From assembly GCF_031679605.1 (NCBI RefSeq), contig NZ_CP117522.1, forward strand, positions 8,990,001-9,054,000: a stretch of 64,000 nt of DNA, written 5' to 3'. A program made the translations under genes and the position numbers. Positions 7,040 through 33,105 of the stretch are shown in pieces (the first letter of the stretch is position 1; each line of letters begins with the position of its first letter). Under the pieces are notes generated by a model that did no database searches, had not been told where the DNA came from, and saw only the letters and a program-made list of their open reading frames with translations. This DNA comes from Streptomyces luomodiensis (GTDB lineage Bacteria > Actinomycetota > Actinomycetes > Streptomycetales > Streptomycetaceae).

Positions 7040-7372
7040 TCAGTCCTGCTGCGGTACGGCCATCTCCCCGAGGCGGGACCAGTCGTCCTGGTCCACGGTC
7101 ACATTGACGATCCGGGGCGTCTCCACGAGGTGGGGAGGCAGCGTCCGCCGTGCCGTGGTGAAGTGGTCGGACTGGACGTGCGCCGCCCCGGCCTCGTCGT
7201 CGCGGAACGCCTCGGTCAGCACGTACTCGGTGGGGTCGTCGATGCTGCGGGACCAGTCGAACCACAGGCACCCCGGCTCGTCGCGGGTCGCGTGGGTGAA
7301 CTCGCGGGTGATCTCGGGCCAGGCGTCCGCGTGCTCGGGCAGGACGCGGAACTTGGCGGTGATGAAGATCAT
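7040..7372 (-). CDS. Antibiotic biosynthesis monooxygenase (ABM) domain protein
   Basis: A 110-residue single ABM-fold protein of the YgiN/quinol-monooxygenase-like family. It starts with the family-typical strand MIFITAKFRV, has CLWFDWSRSIDDPTEYVLTE in the middle, where most relatives carry F-x-x-Y/W-E, and the AHVQSDHFT stretch that contributes histidine to the active site. Such proteins are small ferredoxin-like dimers that oxidise quinols or polyketide-like rings without a cofactor, or act as stress proteins; the substrate cannot be told. GGGAG lies four bases before the ATG. It stands alone between two hairpins, so it is probably monocistronic. Confidence 0.8.
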   Translation of the reverse strand: MIFITAKFRVLPEHADAWPEITREFTHATRDEPGCLWFDWSRSIDDPTEYVLTEAFRDDEAGAAHVQSDHFTTARRTLPPHLVETPRIVNVTVDQDDWSRLGEMAVPQQD

Positions 7373-7576: not shown

Positions 7577-8602
7577 TCAGGGAACGAGGATCGCGCGTCC
7601 GCGGACCCGGCCGGCGTCGAGGTCGTCCAGGGCGTCCTGGAACCGCTCGAGCGGGTACACGCTGGTGTGCAGCCGGACCCGTCCCTGGGCGGCGAGCACC
7701 ATCAGCTCGCACAGATCGTTGTAGGAGCCGACGAGGTTGCCGATGAAGTTGATCTCGGTGGAGATGATGTCGATCGTCGGTACGTCGATGTTCTCGCCGT
7801 ATCCGACCACGTGGTAGTCGCCCGCGCGGCGCAGCATCCGCACACCGTCCCGGGTCGCTCCGCCCTCGCCCACGAAGTCGATCACGACCTCGGCTCCCTG
7901 GCCGCCGGTCAGCTCGAGCACCTCGGGCACCTGCTGCCCAGCGGCGACGACACCATGGTCGGCGCCGAGGGAGGCGGCCAGCTTCACCGCGTCGGGGTTG
8001 CGGTCGACCACGATGATCTCGGCGGCCGTGATCGCCCTCAGCGCCTGCACCCCGATGTGCCCGAGCCCGCCCGCGCCGATGATCACGCAGCGGTCGCCCG
8101 GCCGCAGCTTCCGGGCGGCCTTGGCCACGGCGTGGTACGCGGTCAGCCCCGCGTCGGCCAGCGCCGCCACATCGGCCGGCTCCAGGGAGTCGTCGATGCG
8201 GACGACGCTGCGGGCGGAGGTCTTCAGATACTCGGCGTAGCCGCCGGCGGTGTCGATACCGGGGAAGAGGCTCTGCTCGCAGTGGACGTCGTCGCCGGAC
8301 CGGCACGCCCGGCACAGCCCACAGGTGACCAGCGGGTGGACGATGACCTTGTCGCCCTCGGCCACGTTGGTGACGGCGCTGCCGACCGCGTGCACCCAGC
8401 CGGCGTTCTCGTGCCCGATCGTGTAGGGCAGCGTCACCCCGGACTTCTCGGCCCACTGTCCCTCGAGGATGTGGAGGTCGGTGCGGCACACGCCCGCCCC
8501 GCCGATCTTGACGATCACGTCGTACGGGCCGGTGACCGAGGGGGCCGGTACGTCGGCCATCTCCAGGTTCCGGCCGTACCCCACAACCTGGACTGCTTTC
8601 AC
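7577..8602 (-). CDS. NAD(P)-dependent zinc alcohol dehydrogenase of propane-monooxygenase-cluster type
   Basis: A 341-residue medium-chain dehydrogenase. Catalytic zinc ligands are C39 in GGAGVCRTDLH and the His-Glu of IGHENAG; four structural-zinc cysteines lie in VTCGLCRACRSGDDVHC; the Rossmann motif is GAGGLGHIG. It should oxidise an alcohol to an aldehyde or ketone with NAD(P). The gene order with DUF59 and amidohydrolase genes matches the downstream part of actinobacterial prm/mim propane-type monooxygenase operons, where this enzyme oxidises the alcohol product; here no monooxygenase accompanies it. Its GTG overlaps the stop of the DUF59 gene (GTGA). Family is certain; the substrate is inferred from context. 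Confidence 0.88.
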   Translation of the reverse strand: MKAVQVVGYGRNLEMADVPAPSVTGPYDVIVKIGGAGVCRTDLHILEGQWAEKSGVTLPYTIGHENAGWVHAVGSAVTNVAEGDKVIVHPLVTCGLCRACRSGDDVHCEQSLFPGIDTAGGYAEYLKTSARSVVRIDDSLEPADVAALADAGLTAYHAVAKAARKLRPGDRCVIIGAGGLGHIGVQALRAITAAEIIVVDRNPDAVKLAASLGADHGVVAAGQQVPEVLELTGGQGAEVVIDFVGEGGATRDGVRMLRRAGDYHVVGYGENIDVPTIDIISTEINFIGNLVGSYNDLCELMVLAAQGRVRLHTSVYPLERFQDALDDLDAGRVRGRAILVP

Positions 8603-9393
8603 GAGACGCGCTCCTTCGAAGGGGAGGGGACACAGGTGGGATCGGTGGCGTCCACCGCCCGGGGGGACTGGTCGGCCGCGGACTCCGGATAGCGGGTGCG
8701 CAGCAGCCCGCGGCAGAAGTGCGCGTTGCCGTCGATCGAGACGCGGACCGAGCGGGCGAACCGCAGGCGCAGCGGGATCTCGTCCGGCGGCCAGGGGTGC
8801 CCGTGCTCGTCCACCAGGACCAGGTCGGACGGTGCCACACCGAGGCCGAGCGCCGCGCGCCGGCGCAGCAGCGCGTGCGTCGTCGCCATGTCGGGGAGGT
8901 CGCCGAGCACCACCTCGTGCAGCTTCTCCTCGGTCAGGGCGGGGTCCTGCCGCAGCAGCGAGGTGAGGACCCGCTCCATCGCCGCGGTATGGGCCTTGCG
9001 GCGGAAGATCAGCCGCAGCTCGTCCAGGCTCTCCTCGGCCTCCGCGCCGAACGTGCCCCGGTAGTCGGCGTCGGCGGCCAGCCCGCGGTTGATCAGGTCC
9101 GAGTCATGGTGGTCGTCGAGCAGCACCGTGACCGCCTCGACGCCCGGCAGGGCCGCCAGGGCGTCCTTGGCGTCGGACGCCATGAGGTAGGCGAAGTTCG
9201 GGGAGCAGAACGAGGTCGGCAGCCGCAGGCGCACCGTCAGCCGGCGGTCGGCGTCGACGTCGATGGACCGGACGAAACCGAGATCGGTGATCGGTTCGTC
9301 CAGCTCGGGATCGAAGACGGTGTCGAGCGCCTTCCTGGCCTGTTGGACCAGTGGCGGGGCGGACACCTCCTGGGTCAGTGGACGGGCGGCCAC
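8599..9393 (-). CDS. DUF59/MIP18-domain iron-sulfur assembly-like protein
   Basis: A 264-residue protein whose N-terminal 100 residues are a DUF59 (MIP18) domain: VFDPELDEPITDLGFVRSI, followed by LRLPTSFCSPNFAYLMASD, which holds the conserved cysteine associated with Fe-S or iron transfer. The C-terminal 160 residues are specific to the version found in propane-monooxygenase-type operons and I recognise no other domain in them. By context it may help load the diiron centre of a monooxygenase or the metal of the neighbouring amidohydrolase. It starts with GTG at 9393, one base after the amidohydrolase stop, so translation is coupled. Confidence 0.8.
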   Translation of the reverse strand: MAARPLTQEVSAPPLVQQARKALDTVFDPELDEPITDLGFVRSIDVDADRRLTVRLRLPTSFCSPNFAYLMASDAKDALAALPGVEAVTVLLDDHHDSDLINRGLAADADYRGTFGAEAEESLDELRLIFRRKAHTAAMERVLTSLLRQDPALTEEKLHEVVLGDLPDMATTHALLRRRAALGLGVAPSDLVLVDEHGHPWPPDEIPLRLRFARSVRVSIDGNAHFCRGLLRTRYPESAADQSPRAVDATDPTCVPSPSKERVS

Positions 9394-9394
9394 C

Positions 9395-10396
9395 TCAGAC
9401 CCCCGCCGGCTGGGCCACGGTGTACTCGGCGGGCACCTCGATGTCGTACATCGCCGCCGCGTTCAGCCCGAGGATCTTCTTCTTCTGGGCCACGGTGATC
9501 GGCGGGTACTCGCCCTGCATGTCCTCCGGTATCTGGAAGTCGACGAACCGCTCGATCAGCCACTTGGGCGTCCACAGCGCGTAGTCGCTGGAGAACTGGA
9601 TGCGGTTCTCGTCCAGCCAGTACAGCAGCTCGCCGATGATCTGCGCGAAATACCGCGGACGGGTGTGGATGAAGGGGATGGCGACCGCCAGGCCCGCGTG
9701 CACATTCGGCTCCTGGGTGGCGATCCAGCAGAAGTCCTCGAGCCGGGGCAGCCCGCAGTGCTCGACGACGAAATTCATGTCCGGGAATTGCGTGGCGACC
9801 TTGTCCACGTCCGCGACGTCGAACGCGTCCCGGTCCAGGGGCCGGATCGTCGGTCCCTTGTGGATGTGGATGTTCTTGATGCCCATCTCCTGGGCCGCCT
9901 CCAGGTACCGGTAGGACCACGGATCGTCCAGTTTGTACCCGCGCGAGTCGCCGTGCCATTCGGCCGTGTAGAGCTTGGCGCCCTTGAGCTGGAACCGCTC
10001 GGCGTCCCGCCGGAGCTGGTCCAGCCCCGCCTGCTCGAAGCGCGGGTCCCAGTAGTGGTTGTAGGTCAGCTTGTCGGGGTGGCGTTGGGCCAGTGCGAAG
10101 GCTTCCTCGGTCTGCCCGAAACCGTTGCGGTAGAACGCCCCGAGACGGGCCGGCTGGAAAATGGCGTGGTCGACGTATCCGTCGATGAAGAGGTCCTTCA
10201 TCAGCCGCTCGCCGCCCTGGTAGAGGTATTCCTCGTACGGCCACTTCTCCGAGGCCGGGCTGAGGTTCTGGTGGTAGTCGTAGAAGCAGTCGATGAACTG
10301 CTTGCCGTGAATGTTGAGCTGGTTCTCGGGGCGCGCGTCCCACAATGCGATATGCGCGTCCACGATGAAGTAGTTCTCGCCGTCCTTGCTGTACAT
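9395..10396 (-). CDS. Amidohydrolase-family (TIM-barrel) protein of prm/mim-type operons
   Basis: A 333-residue amidohydrolase_2 (PF04909) protein, first gene of the operon. It starts MYSKDGENYFIVDAHIALWD, continues with IHIHKGPTIRPLDRDAFD, FVVEHCGLPRLEDFCW and ends with SSDYALWTPKW, which supplies the metal-binding or catalytic Asp. The usual first metal motif H-x-H reads H-I-A here. Homologues sit directly behind propane and acetone monooxygenase genes, where they are thought to assist the enzyme rather than act as classical hydrolases. GGAG lies six bases before the ATG at 10396; the frame stays open to 10579, including a GTG at 10459, but these lack a binding site and run into the palindrome. 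Confidence 0.85.
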   Translation of the reverse strand: MYSKDGENYFIVDAHIALWDARPENQLNIHGKQFIDCFYDYHQNLSPASEKWPYEEYLYQGGERLMKDLFIDGYVDHAIFQPARLGAFYRNGFGQTEEAFALAQRHPDKLTYNHYWDPRFEQAGLDQLRRDAERFQLKGAKLYTAEWHGDSRGYKLDDPWSYRYLEAAQEMGIKNIHIHKGPTIRPLDRDAFDVADVDKVATQFPDMNFVVEHCGLPRLEDFCWIATQEPNVHAGLAVAIPFIHTRPRYFAQIIGELLYWLDENRIQFSSDYALWTPKWLIERFVDFQIPEDMQGEYPPITVAQKKKILGLNAAAMYDIEVPAEYTVAQPAGV

Positions 10397-10470
10397 ATCG
10401 GTCTCCGTCCCGGTGATGACCGTGTCTTGGAAGGTGACGTTAGGCAGGTCGGTGTTCACCGGGGAGCCGT

Positions 10471-10495
10471 CGGTTGTCTCACTTTGAGACAACCG
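10471..10495. promoter_or_regulatory. Perfect 11-bp palindrome between amidohydrolase operon and GAF-Fis activator
   Basis: CGGTTGTCTCA (10471-10481) and its exact complement TGAGACAACCG (10485-10495) are separated by CTT. It lies 75 bases before the amidohydrolase ATG and about 73 bases before the divergent regulator start. Fis-type C-terminal domains bind such dyads, so it is very probably the regulator's own site and serves both genes. Confidence 0.8.
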
Positions 10496-10567
10496 ACCGG
10501 GGGCACGTGGCGGTCCCCGCAGTAGCCTGACCGCCTGTTGACGCACGGGCTCTTCATGGAGGTCGCG

Positions 10568-12082
10568 GTGGACCATCACGGCAACCCGGCACCACTCCCG
10601 CCGTACGGGGCGACGGACGGCGAAGCAGCCGTCCTGGCACCCCGCCTGCGCGCCTCATGGCAGCGCAGCAGGCGGTACGGGGTGACGCCGGAGGAGATGC
10701 AGCCGGTGTTCACGGGCTCGGTGGACACCGAATCGCTGCTGTACGAATGCGGCCACGAGGTGCTGCAAGGGCTGCGCGCCACCCTCGCCGACGAACCGGT
10801 CAGCATGATGATCACCAGCAGTGACGGGCTGGTGCTGTGCAGACTGTGCGACGATCCCTCGATCAACCGGTCGCTGGACCGGGTCAATCTGGCACCCGGC
10901 TTCTACTTCGCCGAGAGCAACGCCGGCACCAACGGGCTCGGGCTCGCCCTGGCCGACCGGGCGCCGACGCTGGTACGGGCCGATGAGCACTACTGCACGA
11001 GCCTGCGCGGATACACCTGCGCCGCGGTACCGGTCCTCGACCCGATCACCGGCGACCTCGCCGGCAGCGTCAACCTCACCACCTGGTCCGACTCCTCCTC
11101 GGCGCTGCTGCTGGCCCTCGCGCAGGCCGCGGCCGGGAACACCACGGCCCTCATGCTGGCCCGCGGCAGCGGCAGAAGGGCCCGCCCGGCCCCGCGCGGC
11201 GAGGTGTTCCAGGTGTACCCGGGACGTGCCCGGCACGGCAGCGAGACGCCGCTGCTGTCCTCCCGCTGGATGGACGCGGTCGCGGAGGCGCGGGCGGCGA
11301 TGACCCAGGGGCAGCTCCTGGCCGTCGTCGGTGAGCCGGGCGCGGGCAAGGCGGCCCTCGCCTCGATCGCCCGGCGGGAGATCAAGCCACGGGAGCGCCT
11401 GCTGTGCGCCCGTCCGCCGGCCGCCACGGACGTCGACTTCTGGCTGACCCTCTGGGCCCCCGAACTGGCCAAGGACGACACCTGTGTGATCACCGCCGGC
11501 GTGGACACGCTCCCCGCGTGGGTGGCCGAGGAGCTGGCGCGGCTGCTCACCACCGCGCCCCGTACGCACACGGAGACCGGCCGACGGACTCTGCAGCCGT
11601 CCGTCATCACGGCCGAGGACTATTCGAGCATCCCCGAGCCCCTGCGTGTCCTGGTCGGCGCCGTGGTGGAGGCCCCTGCCCTGCGGTGGCGCCCCGACGA
11701 CGTCCTCCCGCTCGCCCACCACTTCGCACACCAGCACCGGAGCCGCCCGGTCACCTTCTCCGCGGCGGCGGCCCGCGCCCTGGCCGACTACCACTGGCCG
11801 GAGAACGTGAAGCAACTACAGCGCGTGGTGCGCGACGCGGCGTCGCGTACGGACGTGGTGGACCTCAGGCATCTCTCCAGCGAGATCTTCGCGAGTCCGG
11901 GACGGCGGCTGAGCCGCATCGAGGCCCTCGAACGGGAGGAGATCGTGCGCTGTCTGACCGAGCCCGGGACGACCATGGCACGTGCGGCGGACAAACTCGG
12001 CATGAGCCGCGCGACCATCTACCGCAAGATGGCGCGGTACGACATCAAGATGCCGGGCCGCACACCACGCACCCGCTCATGA
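10568..12082 (+). CDS. GAF-domain / Fis-type transcriptional activator (AcoR/MimR-like)
   Basis: A 504-residue regulator. An N-terminal region with RLRASWQRSRRYGV is followed by a GAF sensor (about 60-190) with the FAESNAGTNGLGLALADRAPTLV block typical of AcoR-like proteins, an AAA+-like middle region with a partial P-loop (VGEPGAGKAALAS) and a C-terminal Fis helix-turn-helix (AADKLGMSRATIYRKMARY). The GAFTGA sigma-54 contact motif is absent, fitting an organism that lacks sigma-54. It would sense a small substrate and activate the divergent dehydrogenase operon, as MimR does for propane monooxygenase genes. GTG at 10568 has GGAGG five bases upstream; an ATG at 10556 and a TTG at 10538 lack a good site. 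Confidence 0.85.
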   Translation: MDHHGNPAPLPPYGATDGEAAVLAPRLRASWQRSRRYGVTPEEMQPVFTGSVDTESLLYECGHEVLQGLRATLADEPVSMMITSSDGLVLCRLCDDPSINRSLDRVNLAPGFYFAESNAGTNGLGLALADRAPTLVRADEHYCTSLRGYTCAAVPVLDPITGDLAGSVNLTTWSDSSSALLLALAQAAAGNTTALMLARGSGRRARPAPRGEVFQVYPGRARHGSETPLLSSRWMDAVAEARAAMTQGQLLAVVGEPGAGKAALASIARREIKPRERLLCARPPAATDVDFWLTLWAPELAKDDTCVITAGVDTLPAWVAEELARLLTTAPRTHTETGRRTLQPSVITAEDYSSIPEPLRVLVGAVVEAPALRWRPDDVLPLAHHFAHQHRSRPVTFSAAAARALADYHWPENVKQLQRVVRDAASRTDVVDLRHLSSEIFASPGRRLSRIEALEREEIVRCLTEPGTTMARAADKLGMSRATIYRKMARYDIKMPGRTPRTRS

Positions 12083-12100: not shown

Positions 12101-12667
12101 TCAGTGGGGTGCCACGGCGGGTGTGCCCTTCTTACGGGCGCGGTAGGCGGCTGCCTTGATCTTGTTCCCGCAGGACTCCATACCGCACCACTGCCGGCGC
12201 ATGCCGCGCGAGCGGTCGATGTAGACGCGGGTGCACTCGGGGTTGCCGCACTCCTTGAGCAGCGGCACGTCCGGCCCGCTCAGCACCTCGACCGCATGGC
12301 GCGCCACCACCGACAGCGCTTCGACCGGCGTCGCTTCCGTCCGGCGCCCGGAGCGAGTGAGCCGGGGCACCGCCGAAGGCTCGCGGGCCGCGTCGTTCAC
12401 CACGGCCAGCGCCTCGTCGTCGAACTCCTCCCCGAGGCGGCGCGCGGTCACCAACTGGTAGATGGCCTCCCGCACGCTCGTCGCCAGCTCGACGTCGGCC
12501 CGCCGGCTGGGCGACGACACCACATCGACGATGCCCGATTCCACGTACCACGCGTCCAGCCTGTCCGGTGTCACGAACATCTCGAACCGCGCCGAGCGGC
12601 GCGCGCGCAGCGTCGCGGCGAAGTCGAGGGCCGGGTTTCCGCAGACGAAGACATGGTTCAGGTTCAC
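12101..12667 (-). CDS. CGNR zinc-finger / ABATE domain regulator
   Basis: A 188-residue protein with an N-terminal ABATE domain (FVCGNPALDFAATL at the start) and a C-terminal CGNR zinc finger. Zinc ligands are visible as ECGNPEC and WCGMESC, and the name motif reads C-G-N-K followed by a basic helix (AYRARKK). These are stress-linked DNA-binding regulators in actinomycetes. It converges on the GAF-Fis gene with an 18-base gap and lies 57 bases behind the second ABC-F gene, so it may be the last gene of that operon. Confidence 0.85.
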   Translation of the reverse strand: MNLNHVFVCGNPALDFAATLRARRSARFEMFVTPDRLDAWYVESGIVDVVSSPSRRADVELATSVREAIYQLVTARRLGEEFDDEALAVVNDAAREPSAVPRLTRSGRRTEATPVEALSVVARHAVEVLSGPDVPLLKECGNPECTRVYIDRSRGMRRQWCGMESCGNKIKAAAYRARKKGTPAVAPH

Positions 12668-29302: not shown

Positions 29303-30196
29303 ATGACCGACGAACCGAACCTGCTGGGCGATTACGTGCGCGCCCGCCGCGAGCTCGTCACCCCGGACCAGGCCGGCATCCCCGTCCTGGGGGTACGGCG
29401 CGTGCCGGGGCTGCGCCGGGAAGAGGTCGCGATGCTCGCCGGCATCAGCGCCGACTACTACCTGCGCCTGGAACAGGGCCGCGACCGCAACCCCTCGGTG
29501 CAGGTCCTGGAGTCGCTCGCCCGCGTGCTCCAGCTCGACGACGCCGCGACGGCACATCTGCTGCGCCTCGGCGCCGGCCGACCCCGACGGCGCCGGCGCC
29601 GCCCCCGCAAGGAGACCGTACCCGCCGGCATCGCCCAGCTCGTCGCCATGCTCCCGCTCCCCGCCTGGGTCGAGGGCCGCTACTTCGACGTCCTCGCCGC
29701 CAACGCCTTGGCGACCGCTCTGTCACCGCGCCTCGCGGTGGGGGCCAACCGGCTGCGGGACGTGTTCCTCGACCCCGCCGAGCAGGCCCTCTACCCGGAC
29801 TGGGAGAACGCCATCGCGAGCATGGTCGCCAGCTTCCGCGAGTCCGTCGGCACCGATACGGACGACCCCCGGTTCATCGAGCTGGTCGGCGAGCTCTCGC
29901 TCGCCAGTCCCCACTTCAGCCGGCTCTGGGCCCGCCACGATGTACGGGTGTGTGAAGGCGCATCCATACGGGTCGACCACCCCCAGGTCGGTGGCCTTCG
30001 GCTGCACCGGGAGCGGCTGGGCATCGACGGTGCCCCGGGCCAGCGGCTCGTCGTCAACCACCCGGCCCCCGGCAGCGACGACGCCGACAAACTGGCACTC
30101 CTCGCCTCCGCCACGCGGACACCGGCTTCCCACCAGGAGGCGACGACGCGGCCGTCCGCGCCGGATCAGCGGTGTGCGGGCAGGGTGATGCCGTAA
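29303..30196 (+). CDS. XRE-family regulator with MmyB-like ligand domain
   Basis: A 297-residue regulator. The N-terminal helix-turn-helix (GLRREEVAMLAGISADYYLR then LEQGRDRNPS) is followed by a basic linker RPRRRRRRPRK and the MmyB-like PAS-fold domain (LPLPAWVEGRYFDVLAANAL, DPRFIELVGELSLASPHF). In Streptomyces these genes lie divergent from a single enzyme gene, here the esterase at 28407. The ATG at 29303 has TACAGT ending 6 bases upstream and no Shine-Dalgarno, so the mRNA may be leaderless. Its last 31 bases overlap the convergent AcoR-like gene. Confidence 0.88.
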   Translation: MTDEPNLLGDYVRARRELVTPDQAGIPVLGVRRVPGLRREEVAMLAGISADYYLRLEQGRDRNPSVQVLESLARVLQLDDAATAHLLRLGAGRPRRRRRRPRKETVPAGIAQLVAMLPLPAWVEGRYFDVLAANALATALSPRLAVGANRLRDVFLDPAEQALYPDWENAIASMVASFRESVGTDTDDPRFIELVGELSLASPHFSRLWARHDVRVCEGASIRVDHPQVGGLRLHRERLGIDGAPGQRLVVNHPAPGSDDADKLALLASATRTPASHQEATTRPSAPDQRCAGRVMP

Positions 30197-32079
30197 GCCC
30201 GCATCTTGCGGTAGATCGTGGTGCGTGAGATGCCGAGCCGCTGGGCCGCGAGCAGCTTGTTGCCGTCGGCCTCCAGCAGCGCCGCCACCAGGGTGTCGCG
30301 CTCCGCGGTCTCCCAGGCGCTCAGCGACCGGTGGCCGGCGGCGTGCAGGGACGGCGGCAGGTCGCGGGATTCGACGCGGTAGGTGCGGCGCCCCGCGGCG
30401 GCCTTGCGCAGCACGGACTCCAACTGGCGGACGTTCCCCGGCCAGTCCTGCCGGCGCAGCAGCGGCAGTACGTCGGGAGCGCACTCCACTCCCGCGTCGA
30501 CGCGCCGCAGCAGGGTTTCGACCAGCGCCGGCAGATCGGCCAGACGGTGTCGCAGCGGCGGTATGGTGACCGCCTCCGCGAAGCAGCGCAGCAGAGCGTC
30601 CGGTTCCTCGGGAGTGTGGCCCAAGGTGGCCACGATCCACGTGCCCCGCGCCGCCGCGGCGGACAGCGCCTGGGCGACGGCCGGAGCCTGCGCGGTGGCC
30701 ACGGCGTCGAGGTGGCGCAGCACCAGGGTCCGGCCGGGGCCGGCGGGCGCGGAGCCCAGTGCGTGCGGCAGGCCGCCCGGGAGGGGTGCGTCACCCGGAC
30801 CGGTGGCCTCGTCCGCGTACCGGGAGTCCACGTGCTGCGGGTTCACGTACTGCGCGTCCGTGTACTGCGGGTTCGCGTACCGGGGGTCCGCGGCGTCGAT
30901 GACCACCGGTGCCCAGGCCGCCCCGGCGAACGCGTGTGCCGCGCGGGCCAGAGCGGACTTCCCCGTGCCGGCCTCGCCGTAGATGAGCAGCGGCACCCGG
31001 TCACGGGCGCAGCGCGCCGCCGTGCGGGACACGGTGTTCCACGCGGGATCGGTTCCGGCCAGTCCGGGCAGCGGGCACGGCCTGGTGGGTCCGCTGCCCG
31101 GTCCGCCCTGCTTACCCGGTCCGCCGGGGGAGCGGCTCCCTGCCGTCCGGTGCGGTTCCTCCGCCGCCGGCGAGTCGTCGAAGGTCAGGTCCAGGAGATA
31201 GCCGGCCTTGCCGGCCGGGCCGTCCACCCGGCGGCAGCGCACCAGCACGGACTGGCCACCGGTCAGCTGCACCCTCCGGCGGGTGCGTGGGGCGTGGTCC
31301 AGCTCGGCCGCGGCCTCGTGCAGCAGCCGGTGGTCGTCGCCGGTCAGCCGTCCCGCCGCGGCGGAGTTGGCGAGCAGCAGATCCTGGCCGAGGCAGAGTA
31401 CGGGCCGGCTGCCGTAGTGGGTCGCCTGCCGGAACGCCTCCAGCAGGGCGTGCTCACAGGTGGTGCCGAACTCGTACAGCATCCGCTCGACGTCGTCGGC
31501 GGCCTCCTGCGCCAGGGCGGCCATCAGCGAGCCCGCCGGGCCGTTCCAGCAGGTCAGGTTGATGGCGCCCTCGACCCGCCCGCTGATCGGATTGCGGATC
31601 GGGGAGGCCGCGCAGGAAACCTTCTGCAGGCGCTCGTTGAAGTGCTCGGTGCCCAGCACCACGGAGGAGCGGCGCTCCTCCAGTGCCATTCCGATGCCGT
31701 TCGTGCCGACGAACTGCTCCGCGTAGCTGAATCCGGGCGCCAGCTTCACCCGGTCCAGATGGGCGGACAGCCGCGCCTCCCCGACGCGGCGATCGCGCAC
31801 CCAGCCCTTCCGGTCGGTGACGATGACACACACGTCGGAACCGGCCAGCGTCTGCTCCAGCCGGTCCAGCACGGGTGCCGCCGCACGGATCAGGCGGCTC
31901 TCCCGGTCGTAGTCCGGCTGGTAGGGAACGGTCACCTCGTCGATGCCGATCCCCAGGTGTTTGCAACGCTGCCAGGAGTCGCGGATCTTCTCGGGCACGA
32001 CCGAAGCCGGTGGTTCCGCGCTCTGGAGGAAGTTCAGGCGTGCCCGTGCGATGTTCTGTTCCCGCGCTGTGATGTCCAT
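30166..32079 (-). CDS. AcoR-like GAF / AAA+ / Fis transcriptional activator
   Basis: A 637-residue regulator: N-terminal ARARLNFLQS and IRDSWQRCKHLGI, a GAF sensor (about 70-200, FSYAEQFVGTNGIGMALEER), a PAS-like segment, an AAA+ domain with P-loop YGEAGTGKSALAR, and a C-terminal Fis helix-turn-helix (AAQRLGISRTTIYRKMRAYG). The GAFTGA loop needed to contact sigma-54 is missing, and in its place lies a repetitive stretch RYANPQYTDAQYVNPQH. The Walker B region (TLVLRHLDAV) is degenerate. It is divergent from an acetoin/butanediol-type dehydrogenase, and AcoR-type proteins classically respond to acetoin. It probably works with the housekeeping polymerase. Confidence 0.87.
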   Translation of the reverse strand: MDITAREQNIARARLNFLQSAEPPASVVPEKIRDSWQRCKHLGIGIDEVTVPYQPDYDRESRLIRAAAPVLDRLEQTLAGSDVCVIVTDRKGWVRDRRVGEARLSAHLDRVKLAPGFSYAEQFVGTNGIGMALEERRSSVVLGTEHFNERLQKVSCAASPIRNPISGRVEGAINLTCWNGPAGSLMAALAQEAADDVERMLYEFGTTCEHALLEAFRQATHYGSRPVLCLGQDLLLANSAAAGRLTGDDHRLLHEAAAELDHAPRTRRRVQLTGGQSVLVRCRRVDGPAGKAGYLLDLTFDDSPAAEEPHRTAGSRSPGGPGKQGGPGSGPTRPCPLPGLAGTDPAWNTVSRTAARCARDRVPLLIYGEAGTGKSALARAAHAFAGAAWAPVVIDAADPRYANPQYTDAQYVNPQHVDSRYADEATGPGDAPLPGGLPHALGSAPAGPGRTLVLRHLDAVATAQAPAVAQALSAAAARGTWIVATLGHTPEEPDALLRCFAEAVTIPPLRHRLADLPALVETLLRRVDAGVECAPDVLPLLRRQDWPGNVRQLESVLRKAAAGRRTYRVESRDLPPSLHAAGHRSLSAWETAERDTLVAALLEADGNKLLAAQRLGISRTTIYRKMRAYGITLPAHR

Positions 32080-32256
32080 GTGGCGAGGTGTCTCCGGGGG
32101 AGTGTTTCAGCCATATTACGAACGCCCGGCTTGAACGCAAGATCTCTCGCAACAACAGCGGAATCGACATGCGGGGCCCGCTCCGGCGGCAGCACACCCC
32201 CGTGTTCCACATTGAAAAAGTCGACGGCGCCGGTCGCCCCCACGCTGATGGACAAG

Positions 32257-32282
32257 GCGGACCGCAGAGGGACGCGGTCCGC
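32257..32282. promoter_or_regulatory. Inverted repeat upstream of SDR gene
   Basis: Perfect 9-base arms GCGGACCGC and GCGGTCCGC with an 8-base spacer, 44 bases before the SDR start. An 11-base direct repeat AGCGGAATCGA occurs at 32157 and 32291. Either could be the site for the divergent activator. Confidence 0.4.
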
Positions 32283-32325
32283 TCCGCCCAAGCGGAATCG
32301 AGCGGAACAGACCGGAGGAGCGTTT

Positions 32326-33105
32326 ATGACTTCCCGTATCGCCATCGTCACCGGAGCGGCCCGCGGTATCGGCCGGGGCATCGCGGAGCGGCTGGCGCAG
32401 GACGGCCTCGATGTCGCCGTCGCCGATCTGCCCGCCATGCGCGGGGAGCTGGACGAGGTGGTGGCCGCCATCGAGAAGCAGGGCCGCCGGGCCCTCGCCG
32501 TGGAGACGGACGTGACGAGCAAGGAGCAGACCGACGCGCTCGTACGGGACGTGGCGGACCACTTCGGCAAGCTCGACGTCTTCGTCGCCAACGCCGGCAT
32601 CGCCCGTGTCACGCCCCTGCTGGAGACCGAACTCGAGGAGTTCGAGCAGGTCATGGCCGTGAACCTGCGCGGTGTCTTCCTCTCCTACCAGGCCGCCGCG
32701 CGGCAGATGATCGCCCAGGGCTCGGGTGGAAAGATCATCGGCGCCGCCTCGATCGTCGCCTACCGTCCCTTCGCGCTGCTCGGCCCGTACTCCGCCTCCA
32801 AGTGGGGCGTACGCGGTCTGACGCAGGCCGCCGCCATGGAGTGGGCGAAGCACGGCATCACCGTCAACGCCTACTGCCCCGGCATCGTCGGCACCGCCAT
32901 GTGGGACCTGATCGACGAGAAGCTGGCGGAGGCGGAGGGCATCGCCAAGGGCCGGGCGATCAAGAAGCATGCGGAGGCGATCGCCCTCGGCCGGGTCGAG
33001 GAGCCCGCGGACGTGGCGTCCTTCGTCTCCTACCTGGCCTCGCCGGACTCCGACTACATGACCGGCCAGTCGGTGATGATCGACGGCGGTATCCAGTTCT
33101 CCTGA
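32326..33105 (+). CDS. Short-chain dehydrogenase, acetoin reductase / 2,3-butanediol dehydrogenase type
   Basis: A 259-residue SDR. Cofactor motif TGAARGIGRGIA, structural NAGIA, catalytic Ser in GAASIVAY and Tyr-Lys in YSASKWGVRGLTQ. The stretch NAYCPGIVGTAMWDLIDEKL and the end YLASPDSDYMTGQSVMIDGG are the markers of the BudC / (S)-acetoin-forming diacetyl reductase branch. It should interconvert diacetyl, acetoin and 2,3-butanediol with NAD(H), which fits the divergent AcoR-like activator. GGAGGAG precedes the ATG; the frame is open upstream only because of base composition. Confidence 0.87.
   Translation: MTSRIAIVTGAARGIGRGIAERLAQDGLDVAVADLPAMRGELDEVVAAIEKQGRRALAVETDVTSKEQTDALVRDVADHFGKLDVFVANAGIARVTPLLETELEEFEQVMAVNLRGVFLSYQAAARQMIAQGSGGKIIGAASIVAYRPFALLGPYSASKWGVRGLTQAAAMEWAKHGITVNAYCPGIVGTAMWDLIDEKLAEAEGIAKGRAIKKHAEAIALGRVEEPADVASFVSYLASPDSDYMTGQSVMIDGGIQFS

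Follow-up and report, generated by a model that had tools for sequence, protein, structure and literature searches.

The 64,000-nucleotide window analysed here (the whole stretch, 64 kb) lies about 9.0 Mb into the Streptomyces luomodiensis chromosome, which is complete on one contig of 10.04 Mb. It carries a cassette of genes for an amidohydrolase, a DUF59 protein and a zinc alcohol dehydrogenase, facing a gene for a GAF-Fis regulator. Sequence comparison suggests that this cassette is, on balance, a complete and independently inherited regulon for small diols, polyols or hydroxyketones, related to the accessory module of the prm/mim monooxygenase clusters but not a stripped monooxygenase cluster. 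The cassette probably handles small alcohols or hydroxyketones without a propane- or acetone-oxidising enzyme, since its on-switch is common to the genes of a glycerol-type dehydrogenase and an uptake channel. What is new here is the prm/mim accessory module as a free-standing regulon; no description of the standalone cassette was found in the open-access papers searched.

The promoter-proximal gene encodes an Amidohydro_2-family protein (9395-10396, minus strand; 333 aa; PF04909, 159 bits, cut-off 26.4) with a probable ATG at 10396; its homologue P0001 begins with the same MYSKDG. The following genes, both on the minus strand, encode a DUF59/FeS_assembly_P protein (8599-9393; 264 aa; PF01883, 57.8 bits, cut-off 23.5) and a Zn-dependent medium-chain alcohol dehydrogenase (ADH; 7577-8602; 341 aa; PF08240 and PF00107). 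One base separates the amidohydrolase and DUF59 genes, and the DUF59 and ADH genes overlap by 4 bases; this tight spacing supports the coupling of the three genes. The regulator, GAF-Fis 1 (10538-12082, plus strand; GAF, AAA_lid_14 and HTH_8 domains; start codon uncertain), is divergent from the cassette. The initial annotation of this DNA had described the three enzyme and DUF59 genes as a translationally coupled operon facing a GAF-Fis activator, and both the families and the arrangement were borne out. A fourth cassette gene, about 200 bases past the ADH gene and absent from that annotation, encodes an ABM-domain protein (7040-7372, minus strand; 110 aa; PF03992, 80.7 bits).

According to the available excerpts of PMC6849523 and PMC4428276, the prm/mim clusters of Gordonia, Rhodococcus and mycobacteria contain an accessory amidohydrolase, DUF59 protein, ADH, GroEL, Fis regulator and ABM protein, the divergent Fis regulator and the ABM gene being reported for some of them. 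The families of these accessory genes are the same as in the cassette. In contrast to prm/mim clusters, the cassette has no hydroxylase, reductase, coupling or GroEL genes, its regulator is of a different subtype, and some of its relatives are joined to genes for a glycerol dehydrogenase (gldA), a MIP channel or a short-chain dehydrogenase/reductase (SDR). The absence of the monooxygenase and GroEL genes, already noted at first, was confirmed by tblastn: no relatives of MimA, MimB, MimC, MimD or the MimG chaperonin (the L028 chaperonin serving as the GroEL query) were detected in the window. The proposed kinship with the prm/mim accessory set also held, with the same families found behind mimABCD in 14 of 17 fetched MimA clusters. 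Of the other three clusters, one (L159) has no ADH, and in L166 and L167 close forms of the amidohydrolase, DUF59 protein and ADH are all missing.

The best 80 of 577 related loci, ranked by similarity to the window, were fetched, and their context was read from -9 to +6 kb of the amidohydrolase gene, some loci ending at contig ends. A mimA gene was present in this interval in a single locus (L028). The survey for the three-gene unit without a monooxygenase, suggested in the initial annotation, thus returned 79 of 80 loci without an adjacent mimA. As the loci were chosen by similarity, the ratio of standalone to prm-type loci is no census; a less biased figure is 13 close amidohydrolases versus 4 MimA in 295 Streptomyces genomes. 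The standalone loci belong to four families: Streptomycetaceae, Pseudonocardiaceae, Kineosporiaceae and Nocardiopsidaceae. Across the fetched loci, the DUF59 gene was kept in all 80 and the ADH gene in 78, and an ABM homologue lay downstream of the ADH gene in 36; in the prm cluster L028 the ABM homologue lies behind GroEL.

Between the amidohydrolase and regulator genes, the divergent promoter contains a putative operator not previously annotated, a perfect inverted repeat with 13-base arms at 10469-10497 (GTCGGTTGTCTCA-CTT-TGAGACAACCGAC). Its core (10475-10491) is the palindrome TGTCTCA-N3-TGAGACA. Sites were called with at most 3 mismatches of 14, within 250 bases upstream of the amidohydrolase gene. 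The operator was found in all 62 loci with a window-type GAF-Fis (52-99% identical) next door, including L005, where the regulator was matched as a fragment and the site has 3 mismatches, and in none of the 14 loci with a second-type GAF-Fis neighbour (66-77% identical to the second GAF-Fis of the window, see below). Regulator and operator co-occurred with a Fisher p of 1.5e-15, a value to be read with the loci being related and hence not independent. The control stretch further upstream contained the operator in 0 of 80 loci. No regulator was matched in the remaining four loci. In L028 the prm regulator lies further off and there is no site; a site is absent from L024 as well, L004 has one with 3 mismatches and L006 one with 2. 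Comparison thus shows that GAF-Fis 1 goes together with the palindrome as its putative operator. The Streptomyces cassettes L004, L005, L006 and L024, which have no matching full-length GAF-Fis neighbour, may be cases of natural regulator loss. In locus L061, an exact core was also observed at about position 9790, some 6.3 kb downstream of the amidohydrolase start.

The strain's own 10 Mb genome contains the exact core at only two places. The second site fronts a glycerol dehydrogenase gene (gldA) followed by a gene for a MIP channel (aquaglyceroporin), 2.3 Mb from the cassette. The gldA product belongs to the glycerol dehydrogenase subfamily PRK09423 (498 bits, cut-off 336). The cassette and gldA promoters align over about 150 bases with a score of 126.5, compared with a best score of 57.5 in 200 shuffles. 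A gldA of at least 75% identity was seen in six genomes, and each time it was linked to the cassette. The link is the operator in G000, G001, G024 and G025 (one mismatch), and contiguity in G015 (DUF59-ADH-gldA-SDR, with MIP nearby) and G273 (DUF59-ADH-gldA-MIP, the MIP being 51% identical). Ten weaker gldA genes (47-60%) were also fetched, and none had an operator within flanks of 1.5 kb. Among the 295 Streptomyces genomes, close gldA was found in two, both of them cassette carriers.

The exact core was present in 31 of 41 cassette genomes, while the reversed pattern, used as a control, gave 0 matches in the 41. In total, 42 exact sites were counted, 28 at cassettes and 14 elsewhere, and all 14 were fetched. 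Three of them precede gldA (L113, L172 and L174) and one precedes an acetoin-reductase-type SDR gene (L176); one belongs to a prm-type amidohydrolase-DUF59-ADH set (L173) and one lies near the end of a prm regulator gene (L159). An operator specific to the cassette was ruled out by these 14 sites, which show that the core is common to related GAF-Fis systems. Since the core is shared by related regulators, the regulon claim rests on linkage and on there being only two exact sites in the strain's own genome.

Several observations weigh against a regulon for small diols, polyols or hydroxyketones. The core is not exclusive: the other eight non-cassette sites lie before mimA (L156, L163, L164 and L165) or beside other GAF-Fis genes (L169, L170, L171 and L175), three of the latter near luciferase-like genes. 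At the set threshold no more than 7 of the 48 cassette genomes had a gldA (5 at 75% identity or above), which makes it an optional partner. The six linked cases represent at most four lineages, as G000 is nearly identical to G001 and the tree places G024 and G025 as sister species. The strain's own gldA product scored 412 of the 700 bits required for NF047954, the bifunctional 1,2-propanediol/glycerol dehydrogenase GldA. An SDR above the strict threshold was present in 16 of 48 cassette genomes, and the strain's own SDR sits under another, second regulator. The nearest folds of the amidohydrolase, 3irs and ACMSD-type decarboxylases, name no substrate.

The optional nature of gldA and SDR would also suit an independent regulon for another substrate class, namely detoxification of reactive aldehydes or ketones, or a monoalcohol such as 2-propanol. 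The best solved sequence for the ADH is 1h2b (335 bits), and the next group, at about 200 bits, is that of the secondary alcohol dehydrogenase ADH-A of Rhodococcus ruber, which is in line with such a substrate. This alternative is possible but doubtful, as the recurrent PRK09423 dehydrogenase, TIGR02415 SDR and MIP channel point to polyols and hydroxyketones. The partners taken together, i.e., a polyol dehydrogenase, an aquaglyceroporin-family channel, an acetoin-reductase-type SDR and a Zn-ADH, point to diols, polyols and hydroxyketones. Of the options initially put forward for the cassette, an independent job was the one supported, and it was sharpened by the regulon evidence.

Loss of the monooxygenase had been offered as another option. 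As a remnant, the cassette would be what persists, without a settled role, of a prm/mim cluster that lost its four monooxygenase genes and GroEL. The homology is clear and the gene order is common to prm clusters. Furthermore, the midpoint-rooted tree nests the standalone amidohydrolases among the prm-type ones, so an ancient prm origin is possible; in this tree many standalone forks are weak, the duplicate L040/L162 copies were omitted, as were L166 and L167, whose scores did not reach the bit threshold. However, amidohydrolase identity stays at 80% or more over a wide taxonomic distance among the matches listed, the regulator and operator travel together, and the cassette is joined to gldA, SDR and MIP genes in relatives. 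Some genomes also carry it along with a complete prm cluster: in Prauserella alba (L040/L162), a standalone cassette lies about 11 kb from an entire prm cluster that has an accessory set of its own. A recent loss is not supported, given the cassette's own regulator and operator and its occurrence in four families, and we regard a remnant as very unlikely.

The last option, service in trans to a monooxygenase encoded elsewhere, was addressed with a Pfam-checked MimA query from the full cluster of Nocardia australiensis (L028). This query replaced a PF02332 search, which found nothing in the strain's own genome and was silent in control genomes as well. It was run against 49 genomes, namely the strain's own and 48 with a related locus, many of them drafts; searches with MimB, MimC and MimD covered the window and the fetched loci. 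No MimA-like hydroxylase was matched in the complete genome of the strain. Close MimA (at least 76% identity; only pieces in G012) was present in 17 of the 49 genomes, distant relatives only (24-27%) in 4, and no alpha subunit of a soluble diiron monooxygenase (SDIMO) was matched in 28, the strain's own included. In the 295 Streptomyces genomes, the query found relatives of 86-88% in 4, and another 4 had only distant ones. A close amidohydrolase (at least 83%) was carried by 13 of these Streptomyces, of which one has MimA (G285), one a distant SDIMO (G311) and 11 neither. The four MimA-bearing Streptomyces (G070, G217, G285 and G302) each have an amidohydrolase type of 60-61% identity beside MimA, and the close type is additionally present only in G285.

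The same query detected MimA relatives of 86-92% in other Streptomyces, so its silence on a complete chromosome refutes the in-trans option for a MimA-type enzyme in this genome. Elsewhere, three lines of evidence favour a helper role. According to the part of PMC6849523 available, the three genes of Mycobacterium sp. AT1 lie apart from the monooxygenase, although AT1 does have a propane monooxygenase and the present genome gave no match. The prm clusters of G042 and G046 (L167 and L166) have no DUF59 protein and no close ADH or amidohydrolase, and both genomes possess a standalone cassette (L071 and L078). The same operator core is present in the four prm promoters mentioned above. Together, L166, L167 and the split in AT1 indicate that in-trans service is possible in some organisms but not here. 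Against such a role stand the 28 of 49 genomes (many drafts) without a MimA match and the 14 of 17 prm clusters that have their own amidohydrolase, DUF59 protein and ADH. As an explanation of the present cassette, a helper in trans is extremely improbable. The initial annotation had named a monooxygenase operon elsewhere with its own full accessory set as an observation that would count against its proposal; none was found in this genome, but such operons are present in most fetched monooxygenase-bearing genomes that also have a standalone cassette. In place of a close amidohydrolase, the Pseudonocardia prm clusters L166 and L167 contain a remote amidohydrolase-like protein (29-31% identity; L166:7434-8483 and L167:11423-12496).

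For the favoured reading, a regulon for diols, polyols or hydroxyketones, we infer the substrate and the amidohydrolase reaction as follows. GAF-Fis 1 would sense a small diol, polyol or hydroxyketone, and the MIP channel would admit the compound. The NAD(H)-dependent interconversion of vicinal diols, hydroxyketones and dicarbonyls may fall to GldA, the Zn-ADH and the acetoin-reductase-type SDR. The amidohydrolase would then act on the carbonyl product, with the DUF59 protein as its putative metal or Fe-S maturation partner. Propane-1,2-diol/acetol is the first-guess substrate, because acetol is also the proposed product of a mim-type acetone monooxygenase encoded beside the same module, as stated in the excerpt of PMC7176365. 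In the strain described there, DSM 45062, the amidohydrolase-like protein of the Mim cluster and Adh1 were abundant on acetone and 2-hydroxyisobutyrate (2-HIBA), and Adh1 was proposed to oxidise acetol made from acetone (PMC7176365, same excerpt). That cluster, which serves degradation of acetone and 2-hydroxyisobutyrate, is tied to a MimABCD-type monooxygenase, while the present cassette is not. Handling acetol-like compounds would be a sensible role for such a module whether it stands behind a monooxygenase or by itself.

GAF-Fis 1 gave no match to the sigma-54 activator domain in the domain scan. Its best NCBIfam match was the DhaR-type PRK11388 (103 bits, below the cut-off of 551). DhaR is a GAF-Fis regulator of dihydroxyacetone kinase operons; GAF-Fis 1 falls far below its cut-off.

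An HxH motif at the end of the first strand is the canonical metal motif of Amidohydro_2 proteins. The cassette amidohydrolase has an HxA variant (DAHIALWD) in its place. HxA was observed in all 80 standalone amidohydrolase rows, and HxH in 14 of 17 prm-type rows. The amidohydrolase model (pLDDT 88.7) is closest to the folds mentioned above. Comparison with solved structures gave no single-sequence match, and in a profile search only 3irs was below 0.001. The DUF59 protein model had a pLDDT of 84.8, and in a whole-model search its N-terminal part matched DUF59 folds. The C-terminal extension is helical, and C63 and C227 are invariant in an alignment of 30 sequences. The protein scored below the curated cut-offs for the SUF-associated TIGR02945 (36.9 of 143.4 bits) and for SufT, TIGR03406 (26.1 of 202.6 bits).

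The DUF59 gene is kept in all fetched loci, 79 of them without an adjacent monooxygenase, which argues that its client sits in the cassette and most simply would be the amidohydrolase. In an extended and unlikely version of this idea, the amidohydrolase-DUF59 pair would be the actual enzyme in the standalone cassette and in the prm/mim clusters alike. With a DUF59-built cofactor, it would depend on a metal or on O2, cleave C-C bonds or oxygenate, and act on acetol- or dicarbonyl-type intermediates, the standalone lineage having swapped one canonical metal ligand (HxH to HxA). A related alternative, which we consider highly improbable, is that the amidohydrolase is an O2-activating metalloenzyme like the amidohydrolase-related dinuclear oxygenases (AROs) AibH2, PtmU3 and SfbO, its cofactor again being built by the DUF59 protein. 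The likeness consists in the Pfam family PF04909, to which the cassette amidohydrolase also belongs. The site expected of an ARO is dinuclear and built from three carboxylates and three His. A Rieske partner gene nearby has served as a search criterion for AROs (PMC10811679). In contrast, the cassette has no Rieske or reductase gene, no Rieske partner was found among the six scanned proteins of the cassette and flanking genes, and the nearest folds of the amidohydrolase are other amidohydrolases.

A second GAF-Fis regulator and an SDR gene, a pair at about 30166-33105 that was absent from the initial annotation, lie 20 kb from the cassette. The regulator (30166-32079, minus strand; 637 aa; GAF, AAA_lid_14, HTH_8 and a partial sigma-54 activator domain) has a 36% match to GAF-Fis 1 and is 66-77% identical to the regulators of L007-type loci; in 14 of the 80 loci its orthologue is the regulator found next to the cassette. 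Ahead of the SDR gene, a promoter element, TGTTCCACATTGAAAAA (32203-32219, plus strand), shares its 8-base words with all 14 L007-type cassette promoters and has only one match in the strain's own genome at 2 mismatches or fewer. The SDR (32335-33105, plus strand; exact start not settled) falls in the acetoin-reductase subfamily TIGR02415 (317.5 bits, cut-off 304.35), which its relatives in L020 (321 bits), L176 (313 bits) and L063 (316 bits) also pass, and is 69% identical to the SDR of L063. Nineteen of the 80 loci have an SDR gene joined to the cassette: it is the first gene under a second-type GAF-Fis in 14, all other Streptomyces loci, lies downstream in L020, L063, L066 and L070, and sits past the regulator in L038. 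In one genome, an SDR gene is found elsewhere behind the operator (L176).

In the literature passages available, the prm/mim amidohydrolase and DUF59 genes are given no role beyond their names; in the excerpt of PMC9213486, amidohydrolase and iron-sulfur assembly genes are mentioned by name in a figure legend only. The standalone form, with a putative operator and partners, separates the function of these two genes from the monooxygenase and narrows the candidate inducers and substrates to short lists. It also suggests that the DUF59 protein does more than mature the monooxygenase reductase. A genome with amidohydrolase, DUF59 and ADH genes cannot on that ground be taken to oxidise alkanes or acetone, and the standalone cassette occurs in many soil actinobacteria.

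Around the cassette, a gene for a putative ABATE/CGNR zinc-finger regulator (12101-12667) adjoins the GAF-Fis 1 gene, and the ABM gene is followed downstream, on its own strand, by two ABC-transporter permease genes (PF00528; 5023-6848). Upstream of the gldA operon there are genes for a further permease and a solute-binding protein (L113:10008-12321). Among the stretches fetched for their operator core, L170 and L171, from different genomes, carry apparently the same segment with a GAF-Fis gene and the core, a luciferase-like monooxygenase gene and a glyoxalase-like gene, which may reflect horizontal transfer or contamination. The stretch L175 looks like a close relative of this segment.

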